From Candidatus Nitronereus thalassa (GTDB lineage Bacteria; Nitrospirota; Nitrospiria; Nitrospirales; UBA8639): a stretch of DNA of 64,000 bases. Each line of letters opens with the position of its first letter. The stretch's first letter is position 1. The notes below the pieces were generated by a model. That model worked only from the letters and a program-made list of their open reading frames with translations. It made no database searches and had not been told where the DNA came from. Below are positions 19,035-37,097 of this stretch, piece by piece. The position numbers were made by a program, and so were the translations under genes. Location of the stretch: assembly GCF_032191465.1 (NCBI RefSeq), contig NZ_JAQOUE010000001.1, positions 1,674,001-1,738,000 on the forward strand, given 5' to 3'.

Positions 19035-19100
19035 GACTCTTCTCCTTATTGAAAAAATTGTTTGAGTTCTCCCTAGAACAGCTTTCACCTTTTTAATACC

Positions 19101-19209: not shown

Positions 19210-19241
19210 TGACGATATTTCGTCATATGACGAAGTGACGA
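19210..19241. promoter_or_regulatory. Palindromic upstream activator sites for the sigma-54 regulator
   Basis: Four TGACGA half-sites in 32 bases: 19210-19215 (+), 19220-19225 (-), 19228-19233 (+) and 19236-19241 (+). The centre, TTCGTCATATGACGAA (19219-19234), is a perfect 16-base palindrome. It lies about 100-130 bases upstream of the sigma-54 promoter, a usual place for enhancer-binding proteins, and directly after the regulator's stop codon. Confidence 0.7.
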
Positions 19242-19244
19242 AAC

Positions 19245-21299
19245 CTAAAGAGATCTGGAAATATTCAATTTTTTCATCTTGGAGTGTAAAGTCGTTCGCT
19301 TCATACCAAGGCGCTGTGCGGCTCCATCCGGTCCACCAATGACCCATTTGGAATCCTGAAGCACCTTGAGGATGTGCGCGCGTTCAGCTGAGTTGAGGGT
19401 GGCGTTCGAGGGAAGAGATTTTTGACGTGTCTGTTTGAGGGCCCCTAAGTCCACCACAAGTTCCGATCCTTGAGACAGAATCACCGCCCGTTCGATGAGA
19501 TTTTCCAATTCCCGAACATTTCCCGGCCAATGGTATTGGGAAAGGTGATCCATGGTTTTTTGAGGAATCGTTTCGATGGGTTTTTTCATGCGGGAGGCAT
19601 AACGCTGCGTAAAATACCGAACGAGAATAGGAATGTCTTCTGGCCTCTCTCGAAGAGCAGGAACGGTAATCGGAAACACGTTCAATCGGTAATACAAATC
19701 ACTTCGAAATTGATTGGCCCCGACCATGCTTTCCAGATCACGGTTGGTCGCGGCAATGAGCCGAACATCTACCTTGATCGTTTTTGTGCTTCCCAATCGT
19801 TCAAATTCTTGTTCCTGCAACACGCGTAATAATTTCGATTGAAGCTCTAAGGAGATCTCCCCAATCTCATCTAAAAAAATACTCCCTTCATGCGCCAATT
19901 CAAAACGTCCGACTTTCTGACTAATGGCGCCGGTGAATGCTCCTTTCTCGTGGCCAAAGAGTTCGCTTTCCAATAACCCTGTAGGAATCGCAGCACAGTT
20001 GAGTTTAACGAAGGAACGTTCTTTGCGTGTACTCAACTGGTGCAGAGCCCTTGCGATCAATTCTTTTCCTGTCCCAGTTTCCCCGAGAATGAGAACCGTG
20101 GAACTTGTTGGTGCCACGATCTCCAATTGCTGAAGCACACGTTTTAGCGCAACACTTTCCCCAATAATATCTTCAAAGTTATGCTCCGTCCTGATTTCTT
20201 CCTCAAGGTAGAGCTTCTCCTTGGCCAGACGATTTTTTAGATTGTTGACTTCTTGAAACCTCAGAGCATTGTCAATGGCCAACGCAATCTGCGTGGCGAC
20301 TTGAGTCAGCAGAGTGACTTCATGTTTCGGAAAAGCGTGTTTCTTGCGACTGCCAACATTTAATGTGCCAATGATTTGATTCGGTGAGGAAAGGGGAATC
20401 GCACAAACAGCCTGAATCCCTTCTTGTTTCAAGACTTTGATGAAATCTGATTGATACCCGCGCAAGGCCACAACGTCGGCAACCACAGGCCTATTTTCTT
20501 TGAAGGCCTGACCAGCTGGGGTGTCATCCATTTCAGTTTCTAACCCCTCTTGTAAAAGCCCCTTTCCACTGGGGAAGTCTAAAATATGCGTGCGCATGCG
20601 ATGGGATTGAGGGTCATGCAAGGCAAGGCTGGTATAGCCGTGTTGCAGGTTTTTTCTGAGGCTCTGACTGATCTTTTCAAATAGGCTTCGCAAATCCAAA
20701 GATGAGATGACCGTATTGTTGACTTCCAAAAGGAGACTCAGTCGATCTCGTTCCCGAATGAGTTCTTGATGGTGAAGAACATTATCAACAGCGACGGCAA
20801 CCTGTTTAGCGACATGATGCAAGAACTCTAAATGAGATTCCTGATACGTACCTTGTTGTCTGCTCGCGAAAACAATGGACCCCACTTGGCGTAAGGACGA
20901 AGTCAAAGGCAGCACACACAGTGCCACCACTCCATCCTCTTGCATCAAAGGAAAGGCTTCAGGGTAACGATGATCCTGAGAAATATCCGCTACCAGAAAA
21001 GCTTTTTGGGTTTGAAACACCGTTCCTGCGGGGTGCGCATCCAACTGCCACTTTTTTCCGCCCTGAATGTCCCCGGCCACGTTCGCCTGAATGATGAAGT
21101 CTTCAATCAATTGAGATTCTGGATCAAACAACAAGAGTGCGAGAAAATCTACCTGTACAATCCCGGGCAGAACTTGGGCCAAGCGACGAAAAAGGGCAAA
21201 CAAATCCTGATCCTTGGAAATGGTCTCTGAAATCTCCAAAAGGGTTTTGTATTTACGTTGGTCTTTCGAGTGGGATCCAAGAGTATCTTTGTTCGCCAT
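19245..21299 (-). CDS. Sigma-54-dependent activator, GAF-GAF-AAA+-Fis
   Basis: 684 residues. Two GAF sensor domains (about 20-175 and 195-350), a linker, a sigma-54-interacting AAA+ domain (about 378-610) with Walker A GETGTGKE (406-413), the sigma-54-contacting loop GAFTGA (453-458) and Walker B FLDEIG (475-480), then a Fis-type helix-turn-helix at the C-terminus (MKRTTLHSKMKKLNI). The architecture is that of FhlA-like activators that sense small molecules directly rather than by phosphorylation. It is followed by palindromic sites and a sigma-54 promoter driving DoxX, so that operon is its probable target. The GAF ligand is unknown. Confidence 0.95.
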   Translation of the reverse strand: MANKDTLGSHSKDQRKYKTLLEISETISKDQDLFALFRRLAQVLPGIVQVDFLALLLFDPESQLIEDFIIQANVAGDIQGGKKWQLDAHPAGTVFQTQKAFLVADISQDHRYPEAFPLMQEDGVVALCVLPLTSSLRQVGSIVFASRQQGTYQESHLEFLHHVAKQVAVAVDNVLHHQELIRERDRLSLLLEVNNTVISSLDLRSLFEKISQSLRKNLQHGYTSLALHDPQSHRMRTHILDFPSGKGLLQEGLETEMDDTPAGQAFKENRPVVADVVALRGYQSDFIKVLKQEGIQAVCAIPLSSPNQIIGTLNVGSRKKHAFPKHEVTLLTQVATQIALAIDNALRFQEVNNLKNRLAKEKLYLEEEIRTEHNFEDIIGESVALKRVLQQLEIVAPTSSTVLILGETGTGKELIARALHQLSTRKERSFVKLNCAAIPTGLLESELFGHEKGAFTGAISQKVGRFELAHEGSIFLDEIGEISLELQSKLLRVLQEQEFERLGSTKTIKVDVRLIAATNRDLESMVGANQFRSDLYYRLNVFPITVPALRERPEDIPILVRYFTQRYASRMKKPIETIPQKTMDHLSQYHWPGNVRELENLIERAVILSQGSELVVDLGALKQTRQKSLPSNATLNSAERAHILKVLQDSKWVIGGPDGAAQRLGMKRTTLHSKMKKLNISRSL

Positions 21300-21580
21300 G
21301 GATTCTTTCCGAAAAGGGCTAGGGATGGAATGGTATCCTAACGATAAGTGAAAAGAGAGTAAATCATCTTACAATTCTGGATGATCAAATTTCATTATAG
21401 GTTAGAAACAAAACGACTCTTGACGGGTAGGGACTAAATCTACTGCAAGAATTTTTTTGGGAACAGTTGTGAAAGAGAGGCTTATAGAGTTGGCGAGGAC
21501 AACAAATTAGATTCTTATGAATCGAAAATTCGATGGCGGTTTAAGGTCTTCTGATAACTCTTAAACTTTGGTGAGGAAAA
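21300..21580. other. Upstream region of the sigma-54 activator, no gene
   Basis: Non-coding, AT-rich. It presumably holds the activator's own promoter on the minus strand, which I cannot place. It ends where the tRNA-Gln-derived repeat begins. Confidence 0.5.
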
Positions 21581-21616
21581 TTGATGGCTGGGGGAGAAGG
21601 ATTCGAACCCTCACAG
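21581..21616 (-). repeat. 36-bp copy of the tRNA-Gln 3' end (att-like direct repeat)
   Basis: Identical over 36 bases, and in the same orientation, to 35535-35570, which is the T-arm and acceptor 3' end (with CCA) of tRNA-Gln plus four flanking bases. Beyond 21616 the sequence no longer resembles the tRNA. A direct repeat of a tRNA 3' end 14 kb from the intact tRNA is the classic footprint of tyrosine-recombinase integration, so this is probably the distal attachment site. Confidence 0.8.
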
Positions 21617-22289
21617 TCCCTAAAAAATCGACCAAATGTGATTAAGCATTTCCAGATGTTAATAAATGGCTTCATGGCCTCATCCACACTACGCTACAAA
21701 AAAGGCTAAACCGACTCACAGATTCCAATTAGATGAAAATTCAACTCACAAAATTCCCAAATTTATGCCCAAAAGGCATGACTTAATTGTAGTGTAGGTT
21801 TCAAAGTCAAAGAATTCGCTTGAAACCAAAATCCTAGGAATTTTTAGTGAAGGTAATTATGTAATTTGTATTAATTTTTTTGTCTAATTTACTTCTGGCA
21901 AATGACTCTATATACTTTTCCTAATGAAAAATTTTAGATGTACCGTAATTAGGTTTTAATATACGGGAAATTTCGACAGAAAAAGGGTTATTGTGAAACC
22001 GGGGTAGCCCCTTTCAACGGCTTTTCATCTAGCATTTACCCACGCCGTCCAAACTCTCCGTTTCTATTTTATGGGCTGGACCAACTGGAACAAGGCCCCT
22101 TCTATATCACGAGAGAAATCCAGCATCCCTCTTATTCCTATCGTCTGAGTAGAAAAAGAAGTCATCTTTTAAAAAAAGGGCATCACAAGAAAGCCCAATT
22201 TTTTCTATTTTCTTATTCTATTACTTATCGGGAGCAGTTAAGTATAGGCACGTGCTTATACCCAGATTACTCCATGTTGGGTCAATCAG
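21617..22289. other. AT-rich non-coding entry region of the island
   Basis: About 670 bases with no gene. Strongly AT-rich near 21830-21980. It probably includes the promoter of the kinase at 22290. No integrase frame or integrase fragment is visible here. Confidence 0.5.
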
Positions 22290-23840
22290 TTGGAATTTAA
22301 GGTAAGACCACGATCGATGAAAAACTTTAAAACCACACAAGAGCTTCTGACAGAAAACCTTGCTCTTAGGAAACAAATAACTAGATTAGAATATCTGAGG
22401 GAGGAGTTTCAATTCACTGAACTGACATACCGCCAGATCTTGGATGCCATCAATGACATGGTGTTGGTAAAAGGACCAGGGTCGAAAATTATGTGGGCCA
22501 ATAAAGCCTTTCGTGACTATTACGGAATGACCAATTCAGAACTCCAGAATATGATTGATGCACCCTTTAATGACCCAGATTATACGGAACAATACCTCAA
22601 AGATGATGAGTTCGTGTTTACCACGGGAAAAGTCCTTAATATTCCATGTGAACCGGTGACTAACTGCAATGGAAACATTCGGTATTTTCATACGGTCAAG
22701 TCGCCTATCCTCGATCCAAATGGAAAAGTAGCTCGACTAGTCGCGGTCTGTCGGGACATTACTAAGGAAAGGCATACCAAGGCCCTCATTCGGGAAGGAG
22801 AACGACGGTGGCAAGCTATTTTTGATCAGGCCCCTACAGGCATTGCTATTTTGGACTCCCTCAGTGGACAGTTCCAACATATCAACAAACGGTATTGCGA
22901 CATTGTTGGTTTCCCCCTAGAGGAAATGCTTGCACTTTCCTTTAAAGACATCACTTATCCTGATGATCTTCCACCAGACCTGGAAAATATGCAGAAACTC
23001 TTGTCAGGAAAGATCCGGACCTTTCAGATGGAGAAACGCTATATTAGAAAAGATGGAGCCCTTATTTGGGTCAATTTAACTTGCGTCCCGTTATGGTTGG
23101 ATGAGAACGATCCTCGACAGCATATCGCCATCGTAGAAGATATCACCGAGCGGAAAAAATATGAGGCAATGCTAATCGACCAACAAGGCAAACTGAAAAG
23201 ATGGGCGGTCTTAGCCTCCAAAGCCCAAGAGCGGGAACGTCAACGAATTGCCCTTGGTCTTCACGATGAAATTGGGCAAATCCTGGCCACCCTAAAACTC
23301 CGGCTGAGAAATTCGAGAGAACAAAAGGACGTTTTGATTACAGTCGGTCAAATTAAGGATATCAACCATCTTCTTGATGAGGCCATTCGGGCTACACGCT
23401 CACTCACCTTCGAATTGGGATCACCCATCCTTTACAATCTGGGCCTCTTGGCGGCGCTGCAAAGTCTGGTCGAAAAAACAAGCGAACGACATCCCGACAT
23501 TCAGTTCATCGTCGAGATTTGCCAAGAGCCCCCGAATCTTGAAATGGAGATCGCCACCATCATTTATCGTGCCATTCAGGAACTCCTGAGAAACATTGAA
23601 AAGCACGCCCATCCTCAAACAGTGACCCTGAGGGTTACCAAAGATAAAAATTACCTTTGCATTACCGTGGAAGATGATGGAGCGGGGTTTCCGGTTGTCC
23701 AAACCTTGGGAGAGAATCTTTCCCTTAAGAAATTTGGTCTCTTCAGCATTAACGAACAACTCAAGAGTATTGGAGGAGCCTTTGAGATTCAATCTATTCA
23801 GGGAAAGGGCACGCAAGCGATAATTCTTGCGCCCTTGTAA
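22290..23840 (+). CDS. PAS-PAS histidine kinase, NarL/DegS type (HisKA_3)
   Basis: 516 residues from 22290; an in-frame ATG at 22317 is an equally possible start. There is a short coiled coil (20-40), PAS 1 (about 45-165, with ILDAINDMVLVKG), PAS 2 (about 170-290, with QAPTGIAILD), then a HisKA_3 domain with the phosphorylated His in RIALGLHDEIGQ (near 325) and an HATPase domain with NIEKHAHPQ, VEDDGAGF and FGLFSINEQLKSIGG. No membrane helix, so it is a cytoplasmic sensor. The LuxR-type regulator 81 bases downstream is the obvious partner. PAS 1 closely resembles the second PAS of the kinase at 44865-47909. Confidence 0.93.
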   Translation: MEFKVRPRSMKNFKTTQELLTENLALRKQITRLEYLREEFQFTELTYRQILDAINDMVLVKGPGSKIMWANKAFRDYYGMTNSELQNMIDAPFNDPDYTEQYLKDDEFVFTTGKVLNIPCEPVTNCNGNIRYFHTVKSPILDPNGKVARLVAVCRDITKERHTKALIREGERRWQAIFDQAPTGIAILDSLSGQFQHINKRYCDIVGFPLEEMLALSFKDITYPDDLPPDLENMQKLLSGKIRTFQMEKRYIRKDGALIWVNLTCVPLWLDENDPRQHIAIVEDITERKKYEAMLIDQQGKLKRWAVLASKAQERERQRIALGLHDEIGQILATLKLRLRNSREQKDVLITVGQIKDINHLLDEAIRATRSLTFELGSPILYNLGLLAALQSLVEKTSERHPDIQFIVEICQEPPNLEMEIATIIYRAIQELLRNIEKHAHPQTVTLRVTKDKNYLCITVEDDGAGFPVVQTLGENLSLKKFGLFSINEQLKSIGGAFEIQSIQGKGTQAIILAPL

Positions 23841-23921
23841 GTCAAAGTAAAAAAAATTGCGGGAGGAGAGGAAATGTCAGGCCGGGGTTTTCAGAAATTT
23901 TAAAAGGAAAGACGCAACTTC

Positions 23922-24572
23922 ATGACTTTACGTATCATCCTCGTCGATGACCACCAGCTCTTTCGGGATGGCTTGCATTCGTTATTTGAACAGCAGGAGG
24001 GATTCGCTATCGTTGGGGAAGCCAAAGACGGGCGAAATGCTCTTCGGTTGGTCCAGGAAATACGGCCCGACGTCCTCATCATGGATGCCTCGATGCCGGG
24101 GATGAATGGGATTGAGGCAACCCGCCAAATAAAGGCTGATTATCCCGAAGTCAAGGTGTTAGTTGTTTCCATGCATGAGGACAGGCGTTTTGTGGTGGCC
24201 GCATTGGAAGCAGGGGCTGACGGATATCTGGTCAAGGATTGTCCGTGGGAAGAGTTTATTCAAGCCGTCCATGCCGTGCAAGCAAATTATTCTTACCTGT
24301 GTCCACAGGTCGCCGGATATATCGCCGATGCGTATCGGAAACCCCAAGCGTCTTCAGGCACCACCGGTCTCTTGCCCCTAACAGGAAGAGAACGTGAGGT
24401 CCTGCAGCTGCTTGCCGAAGGCCAGACCACAGAGCACATCGCCACCCTCCTTCACATAAGCAACAAAACTGTACATACCCATCGGAACCACATCATGAAC
24501 AAACTTCACATTGACAATCTTGCTGATCTCACCAAGTATGCAATTCGGGAAGGCTTAACTACCCTGGAATAA
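23922..24572 (+). CDS. NarL/LuxR-family response regulator
   Basis: 216 residues. Receiver domain with acidic pair DD (9-10), phospho-acceptor Asp55 (VLIMDASMPG) and Lys105 (YLVKDC). LuxR-type helix-turn-helix at about 150-210 (LTGREREVLQLLAEGQTTE, then NKTVHTHRNHIMNKL). All catalytic residues are intact. It follows the HisKA_3 kinase at 22290 and is presumably phosphorylated by it. It acts as a DNA-binding transcription factor; targets unknown. Confidence 0.95.
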   Translation: MTLRIILVDDHQLFRDGLHSLFEQQEGFAIVGEAKDGRNALRLVQEIRPDVLIMDASMPGMNGIEATRQIKADYPEVKVLVVSMHEDRRFVVAALEAGADGYLVKDCPWEEFIQAVHAVQANYSYLCPQVAGYIADAYRKPQASSGTTGLLPLTGREREVLQLLAEGQTTEHIATLLHISNKTVHTHRNHIMNKLHIDNLADLTKYAIREGLTTLE

Positions 24573-24962
24573 TAGCCCAGTGGGCCACCACTCCTAAGCT
24601 TGGCCTGACCCCTGTCTCACTTTTTTTTCAAATTCTTCAAACTCAAATCCCTGCTCCCAAGATTCGACGAATCATCCTCTACGTATTTTCATCTGGACAC
24701 CGTAATCCCAGGAAATATTTTACGTAGATTTTTTTAATCAAAATGCCCTTGAAGGCTATGGACAATATAAGAAATTAACACCCTATAAATCAGAATATGT
24801 CCGATTGACCCCACCTTCTGCTTTGGCGTTATTATCAGCGAAATTTTTAAACGACTCAAAAGATTGGGGTTTCATTCATAATGAGTGGTTTTATTCAGGA
24901 CCTCCGACCAAAAAATCCAAGAGGGAGATATATGGGCAACCTAGATTGGGAGGCTATCAATT
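24573..24962. other. Non-coding stretch after the LuxR regulator
   Basis: About 390 bases. A short GCCCAGTGGGC palindrome lies just after the stop codon (about 24575-24585). A start-like ATG at 24932 follows AGAGGGAG, but its frame has no recognisable protein content and overlaps the CxxC gene. Nothing else is seen. Confidence 0.45.
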
Positions 24963-25187
24963 ATGAACATGGAGACAAGATTGGCGTCATTCCTGGAACA
25001 AATGCAGGGACGGGAATGTTGCGACCAATGCGTGATGGAAAAGGTCACTCGGCAGGAAGCCGATTCCTTAGAACTTATGGATATTCGAGAATCGGCATGG
25101 GTGTTAGCGGAATCGTCTGATTTTCATCGTTCACTGGGCAAATGCTCGTTTTGCAAAGAAGTAAAAATAGTGACAAGAGTTTGTTAA
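24963..25187 (+). CDS. Small CxxC/CxxC zinc-binding-type protein (74 aa)
   Basis: The order of elements is a helical N-terminus (METRLASFLEQMQG), a first knuckle CCDQC, a helical middle, a second knuckle CSFCKEVKIVTRV, then the end. Small bacterial proteins with this plan (CDDC near the start, then about 35-40 residues later CSxCxxxKxVTR) are widespread and probably bind zinc and fold like a DNA-binding winged helix. GGGAGG lies about 9 bases before the ATG. It sits between two signalling units. Its role is not known. Confidence 0.7.
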   Translation: MNMETRLASFLEQMQGRECCDQCVMEKVTRQEADSLELMDIRESAWVLAESSDFHRSLGKCSFCKEVKIVTRVC

Positions 25188-25341
25188 ATTTTCCGTTTAT
25201 TCAAAATTTGTTTTACCTGACATTCACAAAGATCGAAGCATGTTGACAAAGATGAATTCAATCCCATGAATCATGACCCTCCCCCATCAACAATCATATA
25301 ATTTTCATTCCCATTTTTTTGGGAGAAAGGATGGTGCAGTC

Positions 25342-25773
25342 ATGGGAGAACGCTCAGCAGGAATGTTTAGTGGAAAACCGTGCAACGGCCGTGTGCTGAT
25401 TATGGATGACGAGCCTGACATCAGAAAAGTAGTCCGTGTCAACCTGGAAAAGGCCGGCTATGAGGTGATGGAAGCCGAAGATGGGGAAAAGGCCATCGAA
25501 GAAATTCACCGTGATGAAAACCCCATCCTGATGGATGCGATTATCTGCGACATCCGCATGCCAAAAATTAATGGTGTCGAAGCCATCAACTATTTTCAAA
25601 CGCAATTTCCCCGAGTGCCCCTTATTGTAATGACCGGTCATCCAGATGTTGAAATGGCCTCGTCATTTCTCCAAAGCGGGGTGACGGATTATCTGGTGAA
25701 GCCCGTCGACTCTGAAAAGTTGCGCGCTGTCGTCGCCAAAGCCGTCGAGTCCAAGGATAACAGTTTTGTGTAA
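25342..25773 (+). CDS. Single-domain response regulator (CheY-like)
   Basis: The start at 25342 (MGERSAG) follows AAAGGATGG; the frame is open upstream. 143 residues: acidic residues DDE (22-24), phospho-acceptor Asp70 (AIICDIRMPKING), switch Thr in IVMTGHPD and Lys in YLVKPVDSEKL. No output domain. It lies just before two histidine kinases in the same direction and may shuttle phosphate between them or act by protein binding. Confidence 0.92.
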   Translation: MGERSAGMFSGKPCNGRVLIMDDEPDIRKVVRVNLEKAGYEVMEAEDGEKAIEEIHRDENPILMDAIICDIRMPKINGVEAINYFQTQFPRVPLIVMTGHPDVEMASSFLQSGVTDYLVKPVDSEKLRAVVAKAVESKDNSFV

Positions 25774-25929
25774 ATAAACGTTCGAAATCCTGTTTTCTCC
25801 AATCGGTCTTAAACAGCGGGGGGCCGGTATTATTTACCTAATTAAATGAATCGAGGAAGGTTCTTTCCAAAGGAACCTTCCCGCCCCCCTTTATTCATTG
25901 CATTTGAATTATTGATGAAAGAGGTGGGT

Positions 25930-26967
25930 ATGATTGATCAATCAATTATTCGGGTCCTTGTTCTTGGAGGGGGACAAGGCGGCACAGCATTATTAGAACT
26001 CTTCTTTCAACTTCCCCACATTCAGATTGTTGGCATTGTCGATACCAATCCGCATGCCCCGGGTTTACTAAAAGCCAAACAGTTACACATTCCCGTGTTC
26101 AGCAATTATATGCAGCTGAATAATCAAAAGGATGTTGACCTCATCGTTGATGTTACCGGGGACCCTGAGGTGTCCAAGTTTTTGCGTCAACAAAGAAATC
26201 CTACAACGGAAATCCTGGATGGTGCCACCGCGAAACTCTTCTGGGAAATCCTTGGGCATGAGAAGCAAATGGAGGGGTGTTTATTGCAAACGGAAAAGCT
26301 GGCCTCCATTGGTACCTTCGTCTCCAGTATTGCCCATGATGTGAATAATCCACTCTACATGATCCTCGGGCATGGGCAAAATATTGCTGAGGACACTGAA
26401 GAGCAATCGACAAAAGAATCGGCTCAATGCATTGTCGCGGCGACCAAACGCATTACAAAAATCTGTCGAGGTCTGACATTGTATTCCCGCGCACCCTCTC
26501 CTGAAAAAATGGAAATGGTCCATGTGAATTCACAACTTGATGAGGCATGGAATATTGCCAGTTTTGCAGCCAATCACCAAGATGTGATCATTGAGAAACA
26601 CTACGACTGCAGTGCCGCTATTCAGGCCAATCAGGATGATATTCTTCAGGTGTTGGTAAATTTAATAGTGAATGCCCTTCATGCAATGGAAGGAGTAGGA
26701 GTATTGACGTTGGCTTCTGTGTGCCAGAATGGGTCGGTCACTCTTCACATCGCGGATACCGGATCGGGAATCCCTGAGAATCATTTACCCAATCTTTTCC
26801 TTCCATTTTTTACGACCAAGCCCAAAGGGATGGGAACAGGGTTGGGCCTTTATTCCGCCAAATCCATCACGGAAAAATACGGGGGACAGATTTGTGTGGA
26901 GAGCGAGGTTGGAAAAGGCACGGCCTTTTCACTTCAATTTCCTGCAATTGAACACGCCCCAACGTAA
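25930..26967 (+). CDS. Rossmann-fold / histidine kinase fusion
   Basis: The start at 25930 (MIDQSIIRV) is supported by AGAGGTGGG just before it; an upstream frame adds 28 residues without domain content. Residues about 6-110 form a dinucleotide-binding Rossmann fold: VLVLGGGQGG, an acidic residue at the end of strand 2 (VGIVDTNP) and DLIVDVTGDPEV, like NAD-binding domains of oxidoreductases. A HisKA domain with His136 (SIAHDVNNPLYMILGH) and an HATPase domain (NLIVNALHAM, DTGSGIP, GMGTGLGL) follow. No membrane helix. The domain pairing suggests direct sensing of NAD(H) or another nucleotide, which is inference. Confidence 0.88.
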   Translation: MIDQSIIRVLVLGGGQGGTALLELFFQLPHIQIVGIVDTNPHAPGLLKAKQLHIPVFSNYMQLNNQKDVDLIVDVTGDPEVSKFLRQQRNPTTEILDGATAKLFWEILGHEKQMEGCLLQTEKLASIGTFVSSIAHDVNNPLYMILGHGQNIAEDTEEQSTKESAQCIVAATKRITKICRGLTLYSRAPSPEKMEMVHVNSQLDEAWNIASFAANHQDVIIEKHYDCSAAIQANQDDILQVLVNLIVNALHAMEGVGVLTLASVCQNGSVTLHIADTGSGIPENHLPNLFLPFFTTKPKGMGTGLGLYSAKSITEKYGGQICVESEVGKGTAFSLQFPAIEHAPT

Positions 26968-27004
26968 TCAACTGTTGTAGAGCTCCCAAAAGGGAGGGCC
27001 ACAT

Positions 27005-29479
27005 ATGGCCGGGACGTCCAGACAAGGCGGATTCACCAAAAAGCTCATTCTCTCGATGCTCTTGGTAGGACTTCTGCCTCTGCTTATTGGTTTGTCGTTG
27101 GCATTTTATTTTGGCATGCGAGAAATTCGCGAAGTGAATGGCGCCAATTTTCAGGCCCTTGCCGTGGAAACTGCCCGAAGGTTGGACCTTGTGGTAGTCG
27201 ACGAACAAACAAGGAACCAACAAATTGCCAAATTACCGGTAATTATTCAGGAACTGGAGAACCTTCGAGACCAAATCCAGCAGTTATCTCCTGAACAAGT
27301 TCAAGCTCGTCTTTCCAAGGAAGATGCCGCATGGAAGTCGCAAGATTCAACCTTTCAAGCCACAATAATTGAACATCCGCTCACCCAGACTCTCATCCGC
27401 AGCGTTCTTGGGACCAACACTGGGTTTTCATCAACTTCTTCTATGGTGGCACGGTCTGCCACTCGGGTGCTCTATGTGACCGATATCCTCGGCCGAGTGG
27501 TGGCGACGACCAATGCGAATGTGTCCTACCTCCATCAACAGTCAGACTGGTGGAAAGGGGCCTTTCACACTGGGGTAGGGAAACCCTATATCAGCAATTT
27601 AGAATTTGACGATTTATTGCGTACGTACACGTTTTCCATCGCGGTGCCGGTAATGGATAGTATTCGATACCGGGCCGTCGGCGTGTTACACCGCGTCTAT
27701 GATGCCAAAGAATTTTTCGCACCATCTATTGATGTGATTCATTTTGGGAAAACGGGCCATGTGATGCTGATGGATAGTGATGGCCGTGTGATTAGCTGTC
27801 CAATTCTCAACACTGGTGAAAAAATTGCCGACTCCCAATTAATTCCCTTGGTCACACCTCTTATCCCAGGATGGACCTTGGGCACCACCGACGGACATGG
27901 CGGCCAGGACCAGTCGATTATTGGATTCTCGGCCTTGCCAACAATGTCCAGGGTCATGATGGATTCGACAGGAAAGCCGTGGCATTTGTTTGTCTGGCAG
28001 TCTTCAGAAGAGCTGTTTGCGCCCGTATATAACCTACGCATTTGGATCGTTTCCTTTGGCCTTATTTCTTCGGTTCTGTTATTGATCCTTGGGGTTTTGG
28101 TGTCGAGACAAGTCGTCCGTCCCCTTCGTGATTTACAAAGTGCCGCCCAACGCATTGCCAATCGGGAGATGACAGATCCGATTACCATTAAGACCGGCGA
28201 TGAAATCGAGGATCTGGCAGAAGAGATTAATCACATGAATATGCAACTCCAGGCAGCGTTTTCCGGATTACTCAGCGAAGTCGAGACGAAGACACAGGAA
28301 GTCAAGTATCTCCGTGAATCCACTACTCAGATCCTCGAAGGAATTCCCGACCCGGTCATCATGGTAGATGAGCATCTCGATGTGAAGTATATGAATCAGG
28401 CTTTTATGCATGCGGCTGGACTTACAAATGGCTGGGGTGACAATCAAAATTTATTGCAATTGATTTCCCCGAGCTCACAAGAACAGCAGCAACTCCGCCA
28501 GGAGGTTCATAACTTGTTGGACCTTTCTCCCACTGATACTTCAGCGAACGGGGATGGAGAGACGCGTATGGCGAAACAAATTAATGATCCGCTCCTCCAA
28601 CATAACACCGATTCGCCTTCGGCCCACGAACACCTTCTCACCATCGAAAACCGGATTTTCCGGTACGACTGGTTCCCTGTCGGTCTTCGTCCAGGAGAAA
28701 ATCCCAAATATGGAATTTTGTTACGAGATACGACTGACGAAAAACGGCTCCAGGATCAACTCATAAACAGTGAAAAGTCGACCAGTTTGGGGGTTCTCTG
28801 TTCAGGCATTGGCCATGAACTCAACAACCCATTGGTCGGTGTCATTGGATTGGCCGAAGCCATTCAAGATGAGGAAGATGTACAAAAGGCTAAAAGTCAT
28901 GCCAAAGCCATTGTTCAGCAGGGCCAACGCATGGCCAAAGTGATACGAGATCTGGTCGGACAAATCAGGAATCAGGAAGCAGCGATTCCAACGGCTCTTG
29001 ATCTCAATGTGCATTTAGACCTGATTGTGCAATACATGAACGTCAAAGGGGACTATCCCGAGGTCACTATTCGGAAGGAGTACCACGATCTTCCTCCATT
29101 TTACGGGCAAACCGACGAAATACGCCTTCTATTTTTTCATGTGATCAAGAATGCGATCCAAGCCATGGAAGGGAAAGGTCTGCTCACCTTAAGAACTCAT
29201 ACCTCGGATTCAGGCAATATTGAAATACGGATTGAAGACACGGGTATCGGTATTTCACCAAATCTTCTGGCTAAGGTGTTTGACCCCTTTTTCACGACTA
29301 AGTTTCAAGGAGAGGGTAGCGGGCTTGGGTTAACCATTGTACAGAGGATTGTACAAAAATATGGAGGCCGGGTGGGATTGGAAAGTGTAGAAGGTCAAGG
29401 AACGCAATGCAGCATCATCCTCCCGGGCGAAAACCAGGCTCATAATAAGGAGGAGGAGGAGAAGGGAAATCTTGCATGA
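27005..29479 (+). CDS. Membrane histidine kinase, Cache-HAMP-PAS-HisKA-HATPase
   Basis: 824 residues. The first membrane helix is at about 14-36, followed by a large periplasmic double-Cache-type domain (about 40-345, with VLYVTDILGRVVATT and HVMLMDSDGRVI), the second helix at about 350-372, HAMP (about 372-425), PAS (about 440-590), HisKA with His604 (CSGIGHELNNPLVGVIG) and HATPase (IKNAIQAM, DTGIGIS, GSGLGL). The Cache domain points to an extracytoplasmic ligand. Its stop overlaps the start of the heme protein at 29476 (ATGA), implying translational coupling and joint function. RBS-like GGGAGGG precedes the ATG. Confidence 0.95.
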   Translation: MAGTSRQGGFTKKLILSMLLVGLLPLLIGLSLAFYFGMREIREVNGANFQALAVETARRLDLVVVDEQTRNQQIAKLPVIIQELENLRDQIQQLSPEQVQARLSKEDAAWKSQDSTFQATIIEHPLTQTLIRSVLGTNTGFSSTSSMVARSATRVLYVTDILGRVVATTNANVSYLHQQSDWWKGAFHTGVGKPYISNLEFDDLLRTYTFSIAVPVMDSIRYRAVGVLHRVYDAKEFFAPSIDVIHFGKTGHVMLMDSDGRVISCPILNTGEKIADSQLIPLVTPLIPGWTLGTTDGHGGQDQSIIGFSALPTMSRVMMDSTGKPWHLFVWQSSEELFAPVYNLRIWIVSFGLISSVLLLILGVLVSRQVVRPLRDLQSAAQRIANREMTDPITIKTGDEIEDLAEEINHMNMQLQAAFSGLLSEVETKTQEVKYLRESTTQILEGIPDPVIMVDEHLDVKYMNQAFMHAAGLTNGWGDNQNLLQLISPSSQEQQQLRQEVHNLLDLSPTDTSANGDGETRMAKQINDPLLQHNTDSPSAHEHLLTIENRIFRYDWFPVGLRPGENPKYGILLRDTTDEKRLQDQLINSEKSTSLGVLCSGIGHELNNPLVGVIGLAEAIQDEEDVQKAKSHAKAIVQQGQRMAKVIRDLVGQIRNQEAAIPTALDLNVHLDLIVQYMNVKGDYPEVTIRKEYHDLPPFYGQTDEIRLLFFHVIKNAIQAMEGKGLLTLRTHTSDSGNIEIRIEDTGIGISPNLLAKVFDPFFTTKFQGEGSGLGLTIVQRIVQKYGGRVGLESVEGQGTQCSIILPGENQAHNKEEEEKGNLA

Positions 29480-30066
29480 AAAATCCACGAGTCGGCATGT
29501 TCGGATTGGTCTTTCTGTTTACATGCTGGATGAATGCTTTCACAAGTGATGCAAAACGTACGGAACACATCCCCGGCATTCCCCCTGATGTGGTGGCGTC
29601 GTATATTCATTCCATCATCCAAGCTGATCGAACCATTTATTCGTCCTTCATTGTCAATCGCCTTCATGAAAATAAAATATTGGATGCAAACGAAGCATGG
29701 GAACAAACGAATTCTCTTCTTCTTCCTGCCCAATTCCTTCAAAAATCTGGAAGATTAGTGGCTGAGCATGGGACCGGAATTCGATTTCGATTGATCAGCT
29801 TATGGCCCATCTATGAACGAAATGGTCCTGTAACTGACTTTGAACGAAAGGGATTGAAAGCTGTAGAAAATAACCCAGATCAGCCGTATTCAGGAGTCAT
29901 TCAAAGTGGGAAGATTTCCTTTTTTCAAGCCATCTATGCTGATCAAGCAGTGACAGCATCCTGTGTCAATTGTCATAATACCCACCCACTCAGTCCCAAA
30001 CGAAATTTCAAACTGAATGACGTCATGGGAGCTATTGTCATTACCATCCCCTTACCAGACAAATGA
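29476..30066 (+). CDS. Exported mono-heme protein, Tll0287-like / DUF3365
   Basis: 196 residues with an N-terminal signal peptide. The body resembles the Tll0287-like (DUF3365, PF11845) sensor domain, and a single c-type heme site CVNCH lies at about 163-167, followed by NTHPLSP. Family proteins are periplasmic or N-terminal sensor modules of kinases and cyclases, thought to report redox or gas state. A GA-rich ribosome site (AAGGAGGAGGAGG) lies before ATG. The 4-base overlap with the kinase gene suggests it is the kinase's detachable periplasmic sensor. Functional link is inferred. Confidence 0.85.
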   Translation: MKNPRVGMFGLVFLFTCWMNAFTSDAKRTEHIPGIPPDVVASYIHSIIQADRTIYSSFIVNRLHENKILDANEAWEQTNSLLLPAQFLQKSGRLVAEHGTGIRFRLISLWPIYERNGPVTDFERKGLKAVENNPDQPYSGVIQSGKISFFQAIYADQAVTASCVNCHNTHPLSPKRNFKLNDVMGAIVITIPLPDK

Positions 30067-30833
30067 TAGAGAGGGCATGGAATACACAATCAGAACATAC
30101 ATGAGATCATCAACCTGAAAAGTTGTCACATTCCTTACTGGGTATTGCCACCCTCCTTGGTGATGGTCAACTAAGGGGGAAGGGCTGAGGCAAGATAATT
30201 TCACAGAAAAGGAGATTCTCTTAAATCCTGAAATCTAAACTGGGATGAGTCATGCTATCACCCCTTACTCTGAGCACTTTCCAGAAGAAATTCACAGTGG
30301 AAGTTTAGTTTGACCAGGGTGTGACACCTTGAAGACAGGAAGCCCGCGCCCTTTCACAAATGAAGCCTCGCAACTTATTGGCTTCCAAGAAGCCAATTGA
30401 TGGCTGGCCTTACTGGACGATTTTCGAACTTTTCGGATCAACGCTACTGGTCTCAACCTCAGTGAATTTGTTGCCGCTTAAGGGTATTTTGAAGCATATG
30501 GCGTTAGGTGATTGGCAAAGAAGTGTTCCAACCTTTGTAATAGAGAACAGGCATCCTTTTTAACAAGACATCATTCCTACATACCTTCCCTCCAATAGCC
30601 TTCTGGCCCGCTGATTAAGAGTCCAAAGCATCCCAACCCAGCGCAGCCTAGCGCAACCCAAGACACCGAAAGTTCAGAGGGTAAACATGAACCAAGGCAA
30701 TCCTGAAGTAGCTTGGTGTGCCTACGGTTGGCACCAAGTTGGCACCAAAGTACCCGATGGTTCCGCCACAATCTTTCCCTGAATTATCCCCCTGCAACCC
30801 GCTGACAGTTACGACATGCCGCAAAATTGTTAA
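30067..30833. other. Gene-poor, scrambled stretch within the island
   Basis: About 770 bases with no credible gene. Short palindromic and repeated words occur, such as GGTGTGACACC near 30317, and a 13-base AATTGATGGCTGG near 30397 that matches the start of the att-like repeat. The mix of composition and the adjoining reverse-transcriptase fragment suggest decayed mobile DNA. Confidence 0.45.
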
Positions 30834-31065
30834 ACCAGGAATTGGGCGAGGTCTCGACACCCCCTCGGGAAGCGGATCGAGCACGGGTTTGACTTTCGGG
30901 GCTATCACTTTAGCCCGACGGGGCTGACCGTCGCCCGGACGACGGTCGAACGGTTCGTCGCACGCGCCACCCCACTTTTCGAGCAAGAGCCGGGGGAGGC
31001 GTTCACCTCCGCCCGGTTCGGGTTGTACGTTCAGCGATGGGTCAGATGGGGGCGTTCAGCGAGTT
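30834..31065 (+). pseudogene. C-terminal remnant of a reverse transcriptase
   Basis: One frame reads KRIEHGFDFRGYHF, then TGLTVARTTVERFVARA, then RFGLYVQRWVRWG. This is the order seen after the catalytic domain in group II-type and related bacterial reverse transcriptases (…I-x-K-GFDFLGYHFSP-x-GL…VRRWVRW). Only this C-terminal part is present, without start, YADD box or ribosome site, and its GC is higher than that of its surroundings. It marks former mobile DNA inside the tRNA-bounded island. Confidence 0.65.
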
Positions 31066-31105
31066 GTGGGGATATTCATTTCCACTGGACCCATCCCTTG
31101 GTGTT

Positions 31106-31452
31106 CTACATATCGATCGTGTCCCAATAACCGGACGGTAAGGACCGCCGGTTATACCAGAACCCCAGCGACGCGCTGTACTGGTCTTCCTTGTTCCCGT
31201 TGAGCACTATGTTAGGGAATGCGCCGCCGGGGGTATGGGTGCGGGAGAGTTTTCTTTACATTGAAGGTTCCCATTGACGAGGGTATTGGAGCCGATTACC
31301 CCACCCCCGGAGTTCTTGAACGTTTGCATATCGCCATTGGAGACTGTGTCACTTAGTATAAACAAAATCCCATTCTCCTCTAGTTGCATGTTTCCGTTCA
31401 TAATGGTCGTACTAGTGATTGATACGCCCTTTGTTCCTTTCACTCGGTTCAC
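31106..31452 (-). pseudogene. Frameshifted repeat protein (NGN-[ML]-Q repeats)
   Basis: On the minus strand, three repeats spaced about 20 residues apart carry NGNMQ, NGDMQ and NGNLQCKENSPAP. A stop follows soon after, but the shifted frame continues with TPGGAF…VLNGNKEDQYSASLGFW up to a TAG at 31106-31108. The pattern NLQCKEN-x-PAPTGG…NGNKEDQC is familiar from exported parallel-beta-helix-like proteins, so one ancestral frame has been broken near CACCCATACCCC. The 5' end and signal peptide are missing. Confidence 0.6.
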
Positions 31453-31734
31453 AAAGCGTTTTGGATAGGTGGCAATTGCCGAAGGCCTCGCTCAAATAGT
31501 GGGAGAGGTATCTGTCGGTCCTCTACTCCGCAAGCTGCAGCTGACCAACTGGTTACGGATATGCCCCAGGCTCAAACTTTGCCACCACAGTTCATATCGA
31601 AGGGTTGTATGTTCATATAAATTTTGACAATTGAGGGAATTAGAGAATGCATTTTGAAACTTACCTTTAATTTTAGAAACAGGAAAATTCGGAGGGTTAC
31701 CGATTGCAGTGTAATCGAGTTGGAAGGTTTTCTG

Positions 31735-33051
31735 TTAATTCGTGTTGAAGGGGCAATTAATATTTCTTCCATCGGCCTTTTCTTTAGGAACAAGCCGGCA
31801 TCCTTTTAAGAACTGCTTTGAAGCTGTCATTAAAGCCAAAACTTTTTGTCGCCCATTCTCCGGATAAGACGAAGAAGCTTTTATTGAACGCTCATTCTCT
31901 CTTATTTTATCGAGAGTTTGCTTACGTGCTGCGTGAAAATCACCTGTACGAAGATAATTTCTTAGCATTTGGATATTTAACAAGATCTTAAAAGTCCGGT
32001 CATATCCTTGATAAGGGGTTTCCAAATAAGGAGAGACCTTTATAGCTTTTTCATAATCATTTAGTACATTTTCAAATCGCTCTTGTTCGACGACCAAACG
32101 AAGTGTATTGTTCGCCTCTTTTGTTAGGATTGTAGTACTCTCCTCCTTAGGTTCAAGTTTTAAAGCCCCAAGACCTAAATGGCTCTCAGCCAAATATGTA
32201 TGACTAATTCCATCGGTCCTATTGTCCCTCCAATTCTTCTGCGCTAAATATTGGTTCAGGTAATCGATACTTTTTTCATAGCGTTCCAAGTAATAACTTG
32301 TCATGCCGGCCAACAAGTGAACCAGTCCCTGCAGTCCCTCAGGGAGTTTAGGTATTTCTAGAACGACATTTTTATATTCGCCGCTCTTGGTGAGATGATC
32401 AGTTATTATGCCTTTCAATTGATTGGTTTGTTTGTCATATTCTGAGGCAATAAAATTCATGTTATCCTCAAAATTGACCTCAATTTTTGCGAGATTCCCG
32501 TTTTTATCAGAGGTTAAAACATCAATTTTTTTTTGGTGGGAAAGGTATTCTGCGTAATCTGATGTTAGGGCCATTAGGGGGAAATTTAATCGGGCATACT
32601 CCCTATATTGTGATACCTTGACCGAGGAATGGCTCAAGTGGAAACTAACGACGTATTGGTCTCCAAAGGATAAAATTTCTCCCCACACAATTAAGGGAAC
32701 TTTATATTGGCGAGCAACCTCTTCAGCCCCAATGTGCAAATCCCGATTCACCTTCTTTACGAGTTCCGAGTCCGGAATTCGAACTACTCCGATTTCATGG
32801 GGGAGTAGTTTAATCAAATTTAAGCTGAGATCGACTGCTAGACGTGATCCCATATCAGGATGGTCTACAGCGTGAAAATGCATGATTCCTATAGCTGGCC
32901 GCAGCTTATCTTGATCTATGAGTTCAGCAACTGGGTTGAGTCTAGGCGTGGCGGGAATAGCGGGTGAGTTTGAAAAACTACTAAAGGTCATAATTATCCC
33001 CAGAAAAGCCAAAATCTTTAAGAGATAAAATGAAGAAAATTTCCTATTCAC
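31735..33051 (-). CDS. Exported protein with TPR-like helical part, unknown function
   Basis: 438 residues. Signal peptide or anchor at about 8-30. Residues 45-160 look like a beta-rich domain (RPAIGIMHFHAVDHPDMGSR, then VPLIVWGEILSF), similar to domains of exported proteins that assemble a response value per request. Residues about 255-410 are helical with TPR-like spacing (YLERYEKSIDYLNQYLAQ, then ENVLNDYEKAIKVSPYLETPYQGYDR). AT-rich compared with flanking core genes. It lies 9 bases after the lipase-like gene at 33061 in the same direction, so the two form one operon inside the island. Confidence 0.7.
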   Translation of the reverse strand: MNRKFSSFYLLKILAFLGIIMTFSSFSNSPAIPATPRLNPVAELIDQDKLRPAIGIMHFHAVDHPDMGSRLAVDLSLNLIKLLPHEIGVVRIPDSELVKKVNRDLHIGAEEVARQYKVPLIVWGEILSFGDQYVVSFHLSHSSVKVSQYREYARLNFPLMALTSDYAEYLSHQKKIDVLTSDKNGNLAKIEVNFEDNMNFIASEYDKQTNQLKGIITDHLTKSGEYKNVVLEIPKLPEGLQGLVHLLAGMTSYYLERYEKSIDYLNQYLAQKNWRDNRTDGISHTYLAESHLGLGALKLEPKEESTTILTKEANNTLRLVVEQERFENVLNDYEKAIKVSPYLETPYQGYDRTFKILLNIQMLRNYLRTGDFHAARKQTLDKIRENERSIKASSSYPENGRQKVLALMTASKQFLKGCRLVPKEKADGRNINCPFNTN

Positions 33052-33060
33052 TAAAGGACC

Positions 33061-34494
33061 TCAGTTAGATGGTGTGTTTTCAATATTATGAATATAACTA
33101 CATATTGCGTCATCAATATTCTGATTATTGTTATTTTTCGGACAATTTTGATTCATTTTATACTGTCCCGCCCTTCTGAAAAAATGCTCGGCGAAGATTG
33201 GTTCGTTGAAACCGTATTCACGTACCCCGAGTGCATACAACGTTGTTTTAAGGTAAGTGCGCCTAATTTCTTGAATATCATCCTGAAAGTCACGTAATTC
33301 CACTTGTACAGATACGTAAGGGTCGTTGAGAAGACCTTTATATTCACCCAAAAAGATCCGCGAATTGAATTTTATATTATTCCCTTTGCCGGATGACCCT
33401 AAACCAAAAATCAATTCAATTGCCCCATGAAGTCTTTGCAACCCTAGTAAATATTGAGGATCTAATGTAGGCAGATTATTTGAATCGACACGAACGTTAG
33501 CCTTAGATTGCGTACCACTTAAACAATCAGAGTCTTTTATTCCTTGGTCACTGCAAATGGTTTGTAATTCACTTCTTATTGCTGCATCCAAGTGGTGCAG
33601 AAGGACGTATGACAATGAGGTCTGATCGGCATTGGGTGAGGCATGAGGGTATATCAAAATAGTATTTGCATACAATTGCTCTTGGGCATGTTGTTTTATT
33701 TTGGTAAAAGAGTGATGTTTCACATTTTTACCGGGACGGATAATTTTAGAATGGGTCCCATCCACATTTTCACAGGGGAATACCCCACAAGCACTCCACT
33801 CTGGAACCAATTCATCACCTATACCGGCATGAGCGTGTAAAGAAATACACCGATCGAGACCAGCGGATTCATAGCACTTAATGATCACACGTGTTACCCA
33901 TTCTCGTAAAAACCGGGTAATTACGTTGCTAGCCAATTCCATATCGGCAATTTGAACATTCAAGATGCTAACCCAATTGGCTTCTGGCACACCAAAATGA
34001 GGGGTGCCATATGTAAGGATCTTTTTTATTGGATGAAGAACATACTCCTGATCTTCTGAAATGAGGTGCAAAACTGCACCAACAATAACGAGTCCACCCA
34101 TACTGTGCCCAACAGGAAGAATGTTTGAATAACGTTTTGTATCGGCGAATAACTTGAGTTCAGCAGCCAAATATCGCCCTGTTTGGGGAATGTCATTTTT
34201 CGAATCCCACAACTCTGTAGGATAGCCGAATAACAAAATGTTATGCCCTTTCATTTCAGGGTCAGAGCACAAAAGACTAACTAGTTGGGTCCATGCGGAT
34301 CTATTTGTGGAATTAAAACCATGGACAAAAAGCAAAAGGCTACGGTTCCTTGGATTGTCTCGAACATAAATGCGTTTCGGGGTTCTATCGGAGTGGTGAG
34401 AGGTATCCTGGCTTAAGAAGCAATTTGTTTCGGCAAAACTCGGTGAAACTCCCAAGAAAAATGCTAATAAGAAGATCATTGAATTGAATATCAT
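33061..34494 (-). CDS. Exported alpha/beta-hydrolase, lipase-like
   Basis: 477 residues. The signal peptide (IFLLAFFLGVSPSFA) is cleaved near residue 22. The hydrolase core starts with LLLFVHGFNS (oxyanion strand), and the nucleophile Ser lies in PVGHSMGGLVIVGAV (near 130), with GTPHFG downstream, as in lipases and PGAP1-like esterases. The second half (about 290-477) is of unknown fold. Substrate is probably an acyl ester in the envelope. Gene is AT-rich and heads a two-gene operon with the TPR-like protein. Confidence 0.82.
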   Translation of the reverse strand: MIFNSMIFLLAFFLGVSPSFAETNCFLSQDTSHHSDRTPKRIYVRDNPRNRSLLLFVHGFNSTNRSAWTQLVSLLCSDPEMKGHNILLFGYPTELWDSKNDIPQTGRYLAAELKLFADTKRYSNILPVGHSMGGLVIVGAVLHLISEDQEYVLHPIKKILTYGTPHFGVPEANWVSILNVQIADMELASNVITRFLREWVTRVIIKCYESAGLDRCISLHAHAGIGDELVPEWSACGVFPCENVDGTHSKIIRPGKNVKHHSFTKIKQHAQEQLYANTILIYPHASPNADQTSLSYVLLHHLDAAIRSELQTICSDQGIKDSDCLSGTQSKANVRVDSNNLPTLDPQYLLGLQRLHGAIELIFGLGSSGKGNNIKFNSRIFLGEYKGLLNDPYVSVQVELRDFQDDIQEIRRTYLKTTLYALGVREYGFNEPIFAEHFFRRAGQYKMNQNCPKNNNNQNIDDAICSYIHNIENTPSN

Positions 34495-34663
34495 GGTAGG
34501 TTTAATTTTTACTTAAAATATGGCTCGCGAAAAATTTTTTTCGCAGTTTCTCATCACTAGTTTTATTGAGCCCTTCTTTAAAAGGGTAAAACCATGGTGA
34601 TCTGAGAAAACGGAACAACTTTAATATTGAAATTTTACCTTATTTAATCACCCAAAGTCATTC

Positions 34664-34942
34664 TTAAAGGAAGGTCTTTGTCACTGACAATAACTTCACA
34701 ATTGGGGTTTCTGGGGTCTGAAATAGGGCTTCAGGAAAGGCATTTACGGAGCATAAAAATAGGCGAATTTGATTGAGAAAGGTATTGGTGTCGAAGCTGG
34801 GACTGTGATGGAGGGAATTGCTCAACTCATTGATAACTTGGGCAATCTCCCGCTCCCTACCTGCATATTCTAAGATTGCCTCTTTGCCAGATTTTGCCTT
34901 TCTTCGCCTGAATTCGCACGAATTTGTCTGTATGTCTACCAC
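34664..34942 (-). CDS. Doubtful small gene (92 aa)
   Basis: Open frame from GTG at 34942 with AGGTG upstream. Mostly helical, with a basic N-terminus (EFRRRKAKSGKE) and a hydrophobic patch (IRLFLCSVNAF). No family recognised. It may be a remnant of a longer protein in a decayed zone, or chance. Confidence 0.3.
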   Translation of the reverse strand: MVDIQTNSCEFRRRKAKSGKEAILEYAGREREIAQVINELSNSLHHSPSFDTNTFLNQIRLFLCSVNAFPEALFQTPETPIVKLLSVTKTFL

Positions 34943-35534
34943 CTATTTAACACCTGGAAAATCGTTTAGAAATGAGGGGGGGGTATCTTCGGTCAGGGGG
35001 GTGGCTGTTTAGGGAACCCGACGACTTGCCATACATACCCCTCTCCCGAAACCTCTCGGCATTATAGCTTTGGTGCTTTCCCAAAAAATAGGAGATGACG
35101 TGCCCCCTTTATACCACCCAATGGTCTATGTTAGAGGCTTGAGTAAAAACGGATCGACCATGCGACGTCTTGACTTATCCATCAAACAATCCATAAGGAA
35201 GCTTGGATCTTAGACTTCTCAATCTAAGATACAGCCTAAGGATGGGGAATCCCTGGAGTCGCCCAAACGCCTTGATATAAGGAGGCTCTTCGCGAAGATG
35301 TGGAGGAACTCTGGTAGTAGAAAAGACGAGGAGACCTTTGAATGCCAAAGGGTGCTGATGGCGTATCAGCTGCTCCAATTTTTAACACAAATTTGGAACA
35401 GAGAGAAAAAAGTGAAGCGGAAATCCGATATTTCTTCTTGAAAGGATTAGAGCAGGAAAGAGGGAATTTGCGAACGGAAAGTTCGATTCCTGGTTGGTTT
35501 TACATTGCTAACCATTCAATATTATTGATGAAAT
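34943..35534. other. Gene-poor end of the island before tRNA-Gln
   Basis: About 590 bases with no credible gene. An 8-base hairpin, ATCTTAGA (35207-35214) with TCTAAGAT (35223-35230), lies in the middle. A plus-strand frame at 35342 runs into the tRNA and is not credible. No integrase gene is seen at this junction, where one would be expected. Confidence 0.5.
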
Positions 35535-35570
35535 TTGATGGCTGGGGGAGAAGGATTCGAACCCTCACAG
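35535..35570 (-). repeat. Second copy of the 36-bp att-like direct repeat
   Basis: Covers four flanking bases plus the 3' CCA, acceptor and T-arm of tRNA-Gln. Identical to 21581-21616 in the same orientation. With the intact tRNA here, this would be the proximal attachment site of the island. Confidence 0.8.
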
Positions 35571-35612
35571 CCAGAACCAGAATCTGACGTCCTACCCTTA
35601 GACGATCCCCCA
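35539..35612 (-). tRNA. tRNA-Gln (anticodon CUG)
   Basis: Read on the minus strand: acceptor TGGGGGA/TCCCCCA, D-arm GTCT…GGAC, anticodon stem TCAGA/TCTGG with loop TTCTGGT (anticodon CTG), T-arm GAGGG-TTCGAAT-CCTTC, discriminator G and encoded CCA. 74 bases with CCA. It lies 72 bases downstream of gltX on the same strand. Its 3' end is duplicated at 21581-21616. Confidence 0.97.
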
Positions 35613-35684: not shown

Positions 35685-37097
35685 TTAGGATGTTTTTCTT
35701 TGGAGAACCTGTTCAATACGGGCCAGCGTCCGGTCTTTGCCCAACAATTGCATCACCTCATGAATGCCGGGGCTAAAGGTTCGTCCGGTAAGGGCCACCC
35801 GAAGGGGTTGGGCAAATTTTCCCATTTTCAGACCATCCTCTTCCAACACGGATTGGATCACGGGGTCGACGTCCTCTTTGGAAAGGCTACTGAGTCCACT
35901 GAGCCGTTCGGCAAACTTTTTTAGGCTTGGCGTTATCGCCGGCGTAAGAAATTTCGTGGCTGCCTCCTCATCCATGGTGACTGGTTCGGTCACAAATGGC
36001 ATGACCCAATCGGCCATCTCAATCAGAGTCTTGGCCCGTTCCCGAACATGCGGAATGACGGCCACTAACCCACCCTGAGGTTGGACCGGTCCGTTGGGAT
36101 CATACCCGTGTTGGGTCAACAACGGGACCAGCAATTCCGCAAGATGCCGAGGGTCTGCTTGTTTAATATGTTCGGCATTCAACCAAAGGAGTTTTTCGGG
36201 ATTAAACACTGCTGCGGAAGCCTGGACATGCTTCAACGAAAACTTTTCGATCATTTCCTGGATCGTAAAAATTTCTTGATCGCCATGGGACCAGCCAAGC
36301 CGAACCAAATAATTCACCAAGGCCTCCGGCAAATACCCCATGTCCCGATACGCCAATACTGATGTGGCGCCATGGCGTTTGGAAAGACGGGCTTTATCCG
36401 AACCAAGGATCATCGGCAAATGCGCGAATTGGGGTACTTGATAACCCAGGGCCTCAAACATGGGTACTTGCCTGGGGGTGTTATTGACATGATCATCACC
36501 GCGAATGACATGGGTGATACCCATGAGCGCATCATCAATCACAACCGAAAAATTATAGGTGGGATAGTTGTTGGAACGAAGAATAATCAAATCATCGAGC
36601 ACGGCATTGTCGAAAACAATTTTCCCTTTAATCAGATCATCAACGATCGTCTGCCCTTCCTGCGGCGATTTAAATCGCATGGCTGCAGGCTCCTTCGGAG
36701 AGGCAATACCTTTCTCGCGGCATCGCCCATCGTATTTGATCGACTCCCCTTTGGCCTGAGCCTCCTTTCGACGGGCTTCCAAGTCTTCGGGGGTGCACAC
36801 ACACCAATACGCTTTCCCTTGTTGAAGAAGTTCCTGCGCTTTCCCTCGATAGAGGTCCAGTCGATCGGTTTGACGAAACGGACCTTCGTCCCAATCCAGC
36901 CCAGTCCAACGCATACCCTGAAGAATTGCATCAATAGCCTCATCCGTAGATCGGTCTCGATCCGTATCCTCAATCCGCAACACAAAGGTCCCCCCGTGAT
37001 GCCGGGCAAACAACCAATTAAATAAGGCGGTTCGTACTCCGCCAATATGCAGATAGCCTGTAGGGCTAGGCGCAAAGCGCACTCGAACATCCGTCAT
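35685..37097 (-). CDS. gltX: Glutamyl-tRNA synthetase
   Basis: 470 residues, normal for bacterial GluRS. Attaches Glu to tRNA-Glu in the cytoplasm. Class I signatures are APSPTGYLHIGGVRTALFNW (HIGH variant, about 9-28) and KARLSKRHG (KMSKS variant, near 245). The four-helix anticodon-binding C-terminus is complete. It sits next to tRNA-Gln. In bacteria without GlnRS, GluRS also misacylates tRNA-Gln for the GatCAB amidotransferase; whether this enzyme is non-discriminating cannot be told here. Confidence 0.97.
   Translation of the reverse strand: MTDVRVRFAPSPTGYLHIGGVRTALFNWLFARHHGGTFVLRIEDTDRDRSTDEAIDAILQGMRWTGLDWDEGPFRQTDRLDLYRGKAQELLQQGKAYWCVCTPEDLEARRKEAQAKGESIKYDGRCREKGIASPKEPAAMRFKSPQEGQTIVDDLIKGKIVFDNAVLDDLIILRSNNYPTYNFSVVIDDALMGITHVIRGDDHVNNTPRQVPMFEALGYQVPQFAHLPMILGSDKARLSKRHGATSVLAYRDMGYLPEALVNYLVRLGWSHGDQEIFTIQEMIEKFSLKHVQASAAVFNPEKLLWLNAEHIKQADPRHLAELLVPLLTQHGYDPNGPVQPQGGLVAVIPHVRERAKTLIEMADWVMPFVTEPVTMDEEAATKFLTPAITPSLKKFAERLSGLSSLSKEDVDPVIQSVLEEDGLKMGKFAQPLRVALTGRTFSPGIHEVMQLLGKDRTLARIEQVLQRKTS

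Follow-up and report, generated by a model that had tools for sequence, protein, structure and literature searches.

The 3' end of the gene for tRNA-Gln(CUG) occurs twice in Candidatus Nitronereus thalassa, once in the intact gene and once standing alone some 14 kb away. This locus raises the question whether the two copies delimit a genomic island at the tRNA, as the initial annotation had proposed, and how the DNA between them came to lie there. The window analysed here is the whole stretch of 64,000 nucleotides at C1:1674001-1738000 of this genome (G000; 4.01 Mb in two contigs, with a chromosome contig of 3.36 Mb). Our reading is that the enclosed DNA, segment B, is quite probably a CIME-like, att-bounded and integrase-less stretch that arose from site-specific recombination at the tRNA-Gln(CUG) 3' end, within an accretion zone between glnS and gltX. 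The elements at its two ends are the following.

35539-35612, minus strand: intact tRNA-Gln(CUG), the putative insertion target, with its 3' end toward the left (ARAGORN; Rfam tRNA)
35535-35570, no strand: repeat copy 1, att-like, the tRNA 3' end plus 4 bp (repeat search)
21581-21616, no strand: repeat copy 2, att-like, a stand-alone tRNA-Gln 3' fragment (repeat search)

The 36-mer TTGATGGCTGGGGGAGAAGGATTCGAACCCTCACAG is present at 21581 and 35535 in two identical copies, composed of the final 32 nt of tRNA-Gln(CUG) and 4 further bp. ARAGORN and the repeat search agree with the initial annotation that a perfect 36-base direct repeat exists and that one copy ends the intact tRNA-Gln(CUG). A decayed leftward extension of the repeat covers 65 nt at 85%, and between 14.9 and 36 kb of the window there are no repeated 20-mers besides this pair. 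Relative to the tRNA, the stand-alone fragment is downstream and points the same way, as a displaced 3' end should. A chance match of 36 bases is so improbable that it can be dismissed: a search of the whole 4.01-Mb genome with the 32-nt tRNA part, allowing up to 3 mismatches, gives just two sites, the fragment being the sole non-tRNA match, and a reversed 32-mer control under the same tolerance has zero sites genome-wide. The Rfam search of the window returned no families other than tRNA, group II intron RNA included, and no plasmid match was found.

Repeat to repeat, segment B spans 21581-35538 (13,954 bp). Its contents are listed here.

21617-35534, no strand: segment B, att-bounded insertion without integrase (absent at the G001 site; no PF00589 or PF00239 match)
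22290-23840, plus strand: PAS-PAS histidine kinase (Pfam)
23922-24572, plus strand: LuxR-type response regulator (Pfam)
25273-30066, plus strand: four-gene cluster RR-HK-HK-Tll0287 (Pfam; homologue searches; tree)
30834-31130, plus strand: reverse-transcriptase C-terminal remnant (PADLOC RT_UG4 profile, E 9.6e-11)
31207-31491: broken repeat ORF
31735-34494, minus strand: AT-rich pair of an uncharacterised 438-aa protein and a DUF676-type alpha/beta hydrolase (GC 0.40)

The sensor kinases, heme protein, reverse-transcriptase remnant, frameshifted repeat protein and AT-rich genes named in the initial annotation are thus all present, the last four as the Tll0287-like protein, the RT_UG4 match, the broken ORF 31207-31491 and the genes of GC 0.40. 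The remnant at 30834-31130 has no match in Pfam or Rfam. A diverged second copy of the four-gene cluster is found at 2617-2621 kb of the same genome, and clusters of this kind are widespread in the order. We considered and rejected the idea that the HK cluster had been duplicated recently in this genome, as the window copy forms a long outlying branch and is 46% identical to the copy at 2618 kb. Segment B contains no recognisable relaxase or phage gene, and Pfam gave no relaxase or T4SS domain among its main ORFs. Searches with PF00589 and PF00239 found neither a tyrosine nor a serine integrase in segment B or near the window, in line with the earlier remark that none is visible. A candidate C-terminal integrase remnant beside the tRNA was discarded because essentially only tRNA-encoded residues matched.

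The limits of the acquired DNA follow from comparison with relatives. The nearest relatives of the window are Nitrospirales metagenome genomes, the best being G001 (JAQBUF010000002.1; gltX 88% identical), which is the only congener with the region contiguous; most relatives are draft or metagenome assemblies. At the G001 locus (C86, L025), the gene order runs from glnS via a formyltetrahydrofolate deformylase-like gene, cspA and tRNA-Gln to gltX. Three further features are needed for this comparison.

14914-15117, minus strand: cspA, the last gene in common with the G001 site (comparison with G001)
15368-21580, no strand: segment A, acquired DNA reaching from the cspA flank to the stand-alone fragment (absent at the G001 site)
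35685-37097, minus strand: gltX, the conserved flank (comparison with relatives)

Matches between the window and L025 run up to 1957, resume over cspA and its flank (14912-15367) and begin again at 35539. In G001 the cspA flank and tRNA-Gln are about 47 bp apart, with neither segment A nor segment B between them. Relative to G001, the extra DNA at tRNA-Gln is therefore 15368-35534, a stretch of about 20.2 kb that has the 21581 repeat in its interior. The proteins tested from 15.4-35 kb have no counterpart encoded at the cspA-tRNA junction of G001; within L025 they matched only a generic response-regulator domain, farther out in the flank. It had been predicted that an empty site would join the sequence left of 21581 directly to the tRNA. 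G001 joins cspA, at the equivalent of window position 15367, to the tRNA instead. The G001 site lacks segments A and B together and is no empty site for B alone; it has no single-copy site at the 21581 junction, and no intermediate genome catches the last insertion step. An island at the tRNA 3' end is thus supported in kind, while the limits first drawn for it are incomplete, as the zone of insertion measures 20.2 kb or more and the att-like copy at 21581 lies inside it. The housekeeping flanks expected on both sides are found only on the right, where gltX is conserved; on the left, 15.4-21.6 kb is not housekeeping DNA and is absent at the G001 site. Further left, 1958-14911 is a separate 13-kb insertion, also absent from G001. 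It contains one 2879-aa GH94/glucoamylase-type protein, cyclic beta-glucan synthase-like, and its GC reaches 0.60 against about 0.48 in the surroundings.

The difference from G001 could also have arisen by loss, with segments A and B ancestral, deleted in G001, and the tRNA fragment an old scar. Homologues of segment A in other genera and the wide occurrence in the order of diverged four-gene clusters like that of segment B are compatible with this scenario. The distance from glnS to tRNA-Gln speaks against it: the outgroup g4 genomes have a gap of 0.6-2.3 kb, against 6.4 kb in G001 and 38.8 kb in G000, so that gain in G000 is favoured over loss in G001. The genes of segment A (ankyrin, glyoxalase, MBL-fold, an unassigned 125-aa protein, DoxX and a sigma-54 activator) have their homologues at other genomic places, in genera g5 and g9. 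The MBL DNA is 86% identical to that of G014 and G019, from two other genera, a level far above the roughly 69-72% of gltX DNA over most of its length, which indicates horizontal transfer of the MBL stretch. We regard ancestral presence of both segments as very unlikely.

Were segments A and B a clean tandem of two elements, a third att copy would be expected at 15368. The candidate there was rejected as not significant, since 21-38 of 1000 shuffles reached its best alignment and other window tiles did equally well. Because this copy was not found, segment A is only possibly an older insertion at the same tRNA that has since lost its outer repeat, a reading for which the balance stands about even.

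Insertions at tRNA-Gln recur in the family. A survey of 49 family genomes turned up solitary pieces of tRNA-Gln(CUG), about 34-47 nt long, in G002, G014 and G062, and two of them in G058. The two in G058 are in cis, at 6.2 and 10.1 kb on the downstream side of the intact tRNA, and the fragment in G062 is likewise in cis, 0.75 kb downstream of its intact tRNA. Just past the outermost fragment, G058 and G062 have a lipoprotein-type and a small membrane-type ORF in common; their interiors differ. The G058 locus (L116, G058:C51, 4014-14149) has two stacked CUG fragments without an integrase, and its cargo includes an FGE-sulfatase/trypsin-domain protein. The CUG-fragment contigs of the four genomes yielded neither a tyrosine nor a serine recombinase, and the lack of an integrase at any of the five CUG loci is mildly unusual. 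At tRNA-Gln(UUG), the family has classic elements: G023:C8 carries a 16-kb element with a 444-aa PF00589 integrase abutting the tRNA and a 46-bp repeat 16 kb away, and G009:C23 carries a 13.5-kb element whose integrase is frameshifted (L196 1574-15137). Further tRNA-Gln(UUG) fragments are present in G054, G051, G049, G053 and G064. On the G051 contig (G051:C31, L194 221-1798), a 526-aa serine recombinase ORF abuts the fragment; the same contig also has tyrosine integrases, so that different recombinase types are found at one target. Both the tRNA-Gln(CUG) and the tRNA-Gln(UUG) gene are repeated insertion sites in this family.

Beside the two tRNA-Gln copies of the window, the similarity extends beyond the repeat itself.

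21485-21584, no strand: arm A, about 100 bp adjoining the stand-alone fragment (shuffle tests; alignment)
35439-35538, no strand: arm B, about 100 bp adjoining the tRNA, with similarity to arm A as well as the tRNA-Gln(UUG) flank (shuffle tests; alignment)

With the flank of tRNA-Gln(UUG) in G000 as C, the observed similarity was reached by 0/500 shuffles for A-B, 0/500 for A-C and 2/500 for B-C, and the B-C similarity reaches about 160 bp. The related arms of about 100 bp suggest shared element ends. Their presence at two isoacceptor genes is mildly unusual. The UUG elements of other genera have arms in common among themselves; a relationship of these to the right arm of the window was rejected as not significant (nhmmer E 17).

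The arms also bear on an explanation that requires no site-specific recombinase, a segmental duplication of the tRNA-Gln 3' half with 100 bp of trailer, the genes between having entered by ordinary recombination. Similarity running about 100 bp past the tRNA end and common to the other tRNA-Gln of G000 is what a duplicated trailer would give. Related arms are, however, absent at both tRNA-Gln genes of G001, the fragments in several genomes always retain the 3' end, their break falling within about 34-47 nt, and the integrase-bearing tRNA-Gln(UUG) elements break likewise, with arms shared between insertions. Duplication is thus an unlikely origin. A more specific form of the insertion model would be a family of integrase-less elements in G000 that share their ends (arms A and B and the tRNA-Gln(UUG) flank), use both tRNA-Gln isoacceptor genes and depend for movement on a resident integrase acting in trans, for example a 387-aa protein encoded elsewhere in the genome; we consider this rather doubtful. 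The gene for this protein lies at 2481 kb (L158 6838-7998). Its product is 53% identical to the tRNA-Gln(UUG) integrase of G023, and there is no tRNA within the 16 kb examined around it.

For site-specific insertion, our preferred reading, the course of events may be pictured as follows. Segment B would have inserted at the tRNA-Gln(CUG) 3' end by site-specific recombination, the element supplying the 3' end of the intact tRNA while the original 3' end was displaced and left at 21581. Since it has no integrase of its own, segment B would be decayed or never autonomous, and an integrase in trans would be needed. Segment A, to the left of B, is likewise acquired DNA, and both lie in an accretion zone from glnS to gltX. 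The repeat, the lack of this DNA at the G001 site, the recurring fragments at the tRNA in relatives and the missing integrase in cis are observations, whereas the action of a recombinase, the sequence of insertions and any present mobility are inferred. The earlier suggestion of site-specific insertion by an old element or one mobilised in trans fits the data, given the correct orientation of the fragment and the recurrent targeting of both tRNA-Gln genes. The region from glnS over tRNA-Gln to gltX would then be an accretion hotspot in these Nitrospirales, and part of the strain-specific sensing and accessory genes could be traced to insertions at two tRNA-Gln genes. The locus also calls for caution when island borders are read from a lone direct repeat, since such a repeat may mark a junction within the island rather than its outer boundary.

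Compared with known systems, one close likeness is to CIMEs (cis-mobilizable elements) and tandem accretion at tRNA genes, for which a model in three steps has been described, namely integration, decay to a CIME and accretion (PMC5704250). Shared features are att-like repeats at a tRNA 3' end, the lack of integration and transfer genes (PF00589/PF00239 searches; main ORFs) and more acquired DNA adjoining. attL and attR are retained as sequence, in two identical 36-bp copies of which one completes the tRNA, and on such features the architecture of segment B can be called CIME-like. It differs in that the window has no functional partner element in tandem; no ICE or IME remnant is recognisable in segment B, and descent from an ICE or IME, as well as mobilisation, is putative. 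Islander tDNA islands (PMC4383910) share the regenerated tRNA and the displaced fragment at their ends, here in the correct orientation; the window island differs from them in having no tyrosine integrase inside, and the locus fails as an autonomous integrase-bearing island. The tRNA-Gln(UUG) elements G023:C8 and G009:C23 come from the same host family and likewise use a tRNA-Gln 3' end with a displaced fragment downstream. In them, however, an integrase abuts the tRNA, and their arms are not detectably related to those of the window. The ssrA islands of Dehalococcoides are tandem and delimited by RNA-gene 3'-end fragments, and 15 of them are without integration modules (PMC3146451). They use a tmRNA target and a serine integrase, whereas the window has a tRNA-Gln target and no integrase in cis; the tandem architecture and the occurrence of integrase-less members are the same. 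Islands at tRNA genes are already well known, and the window locus is ordinary in kind.
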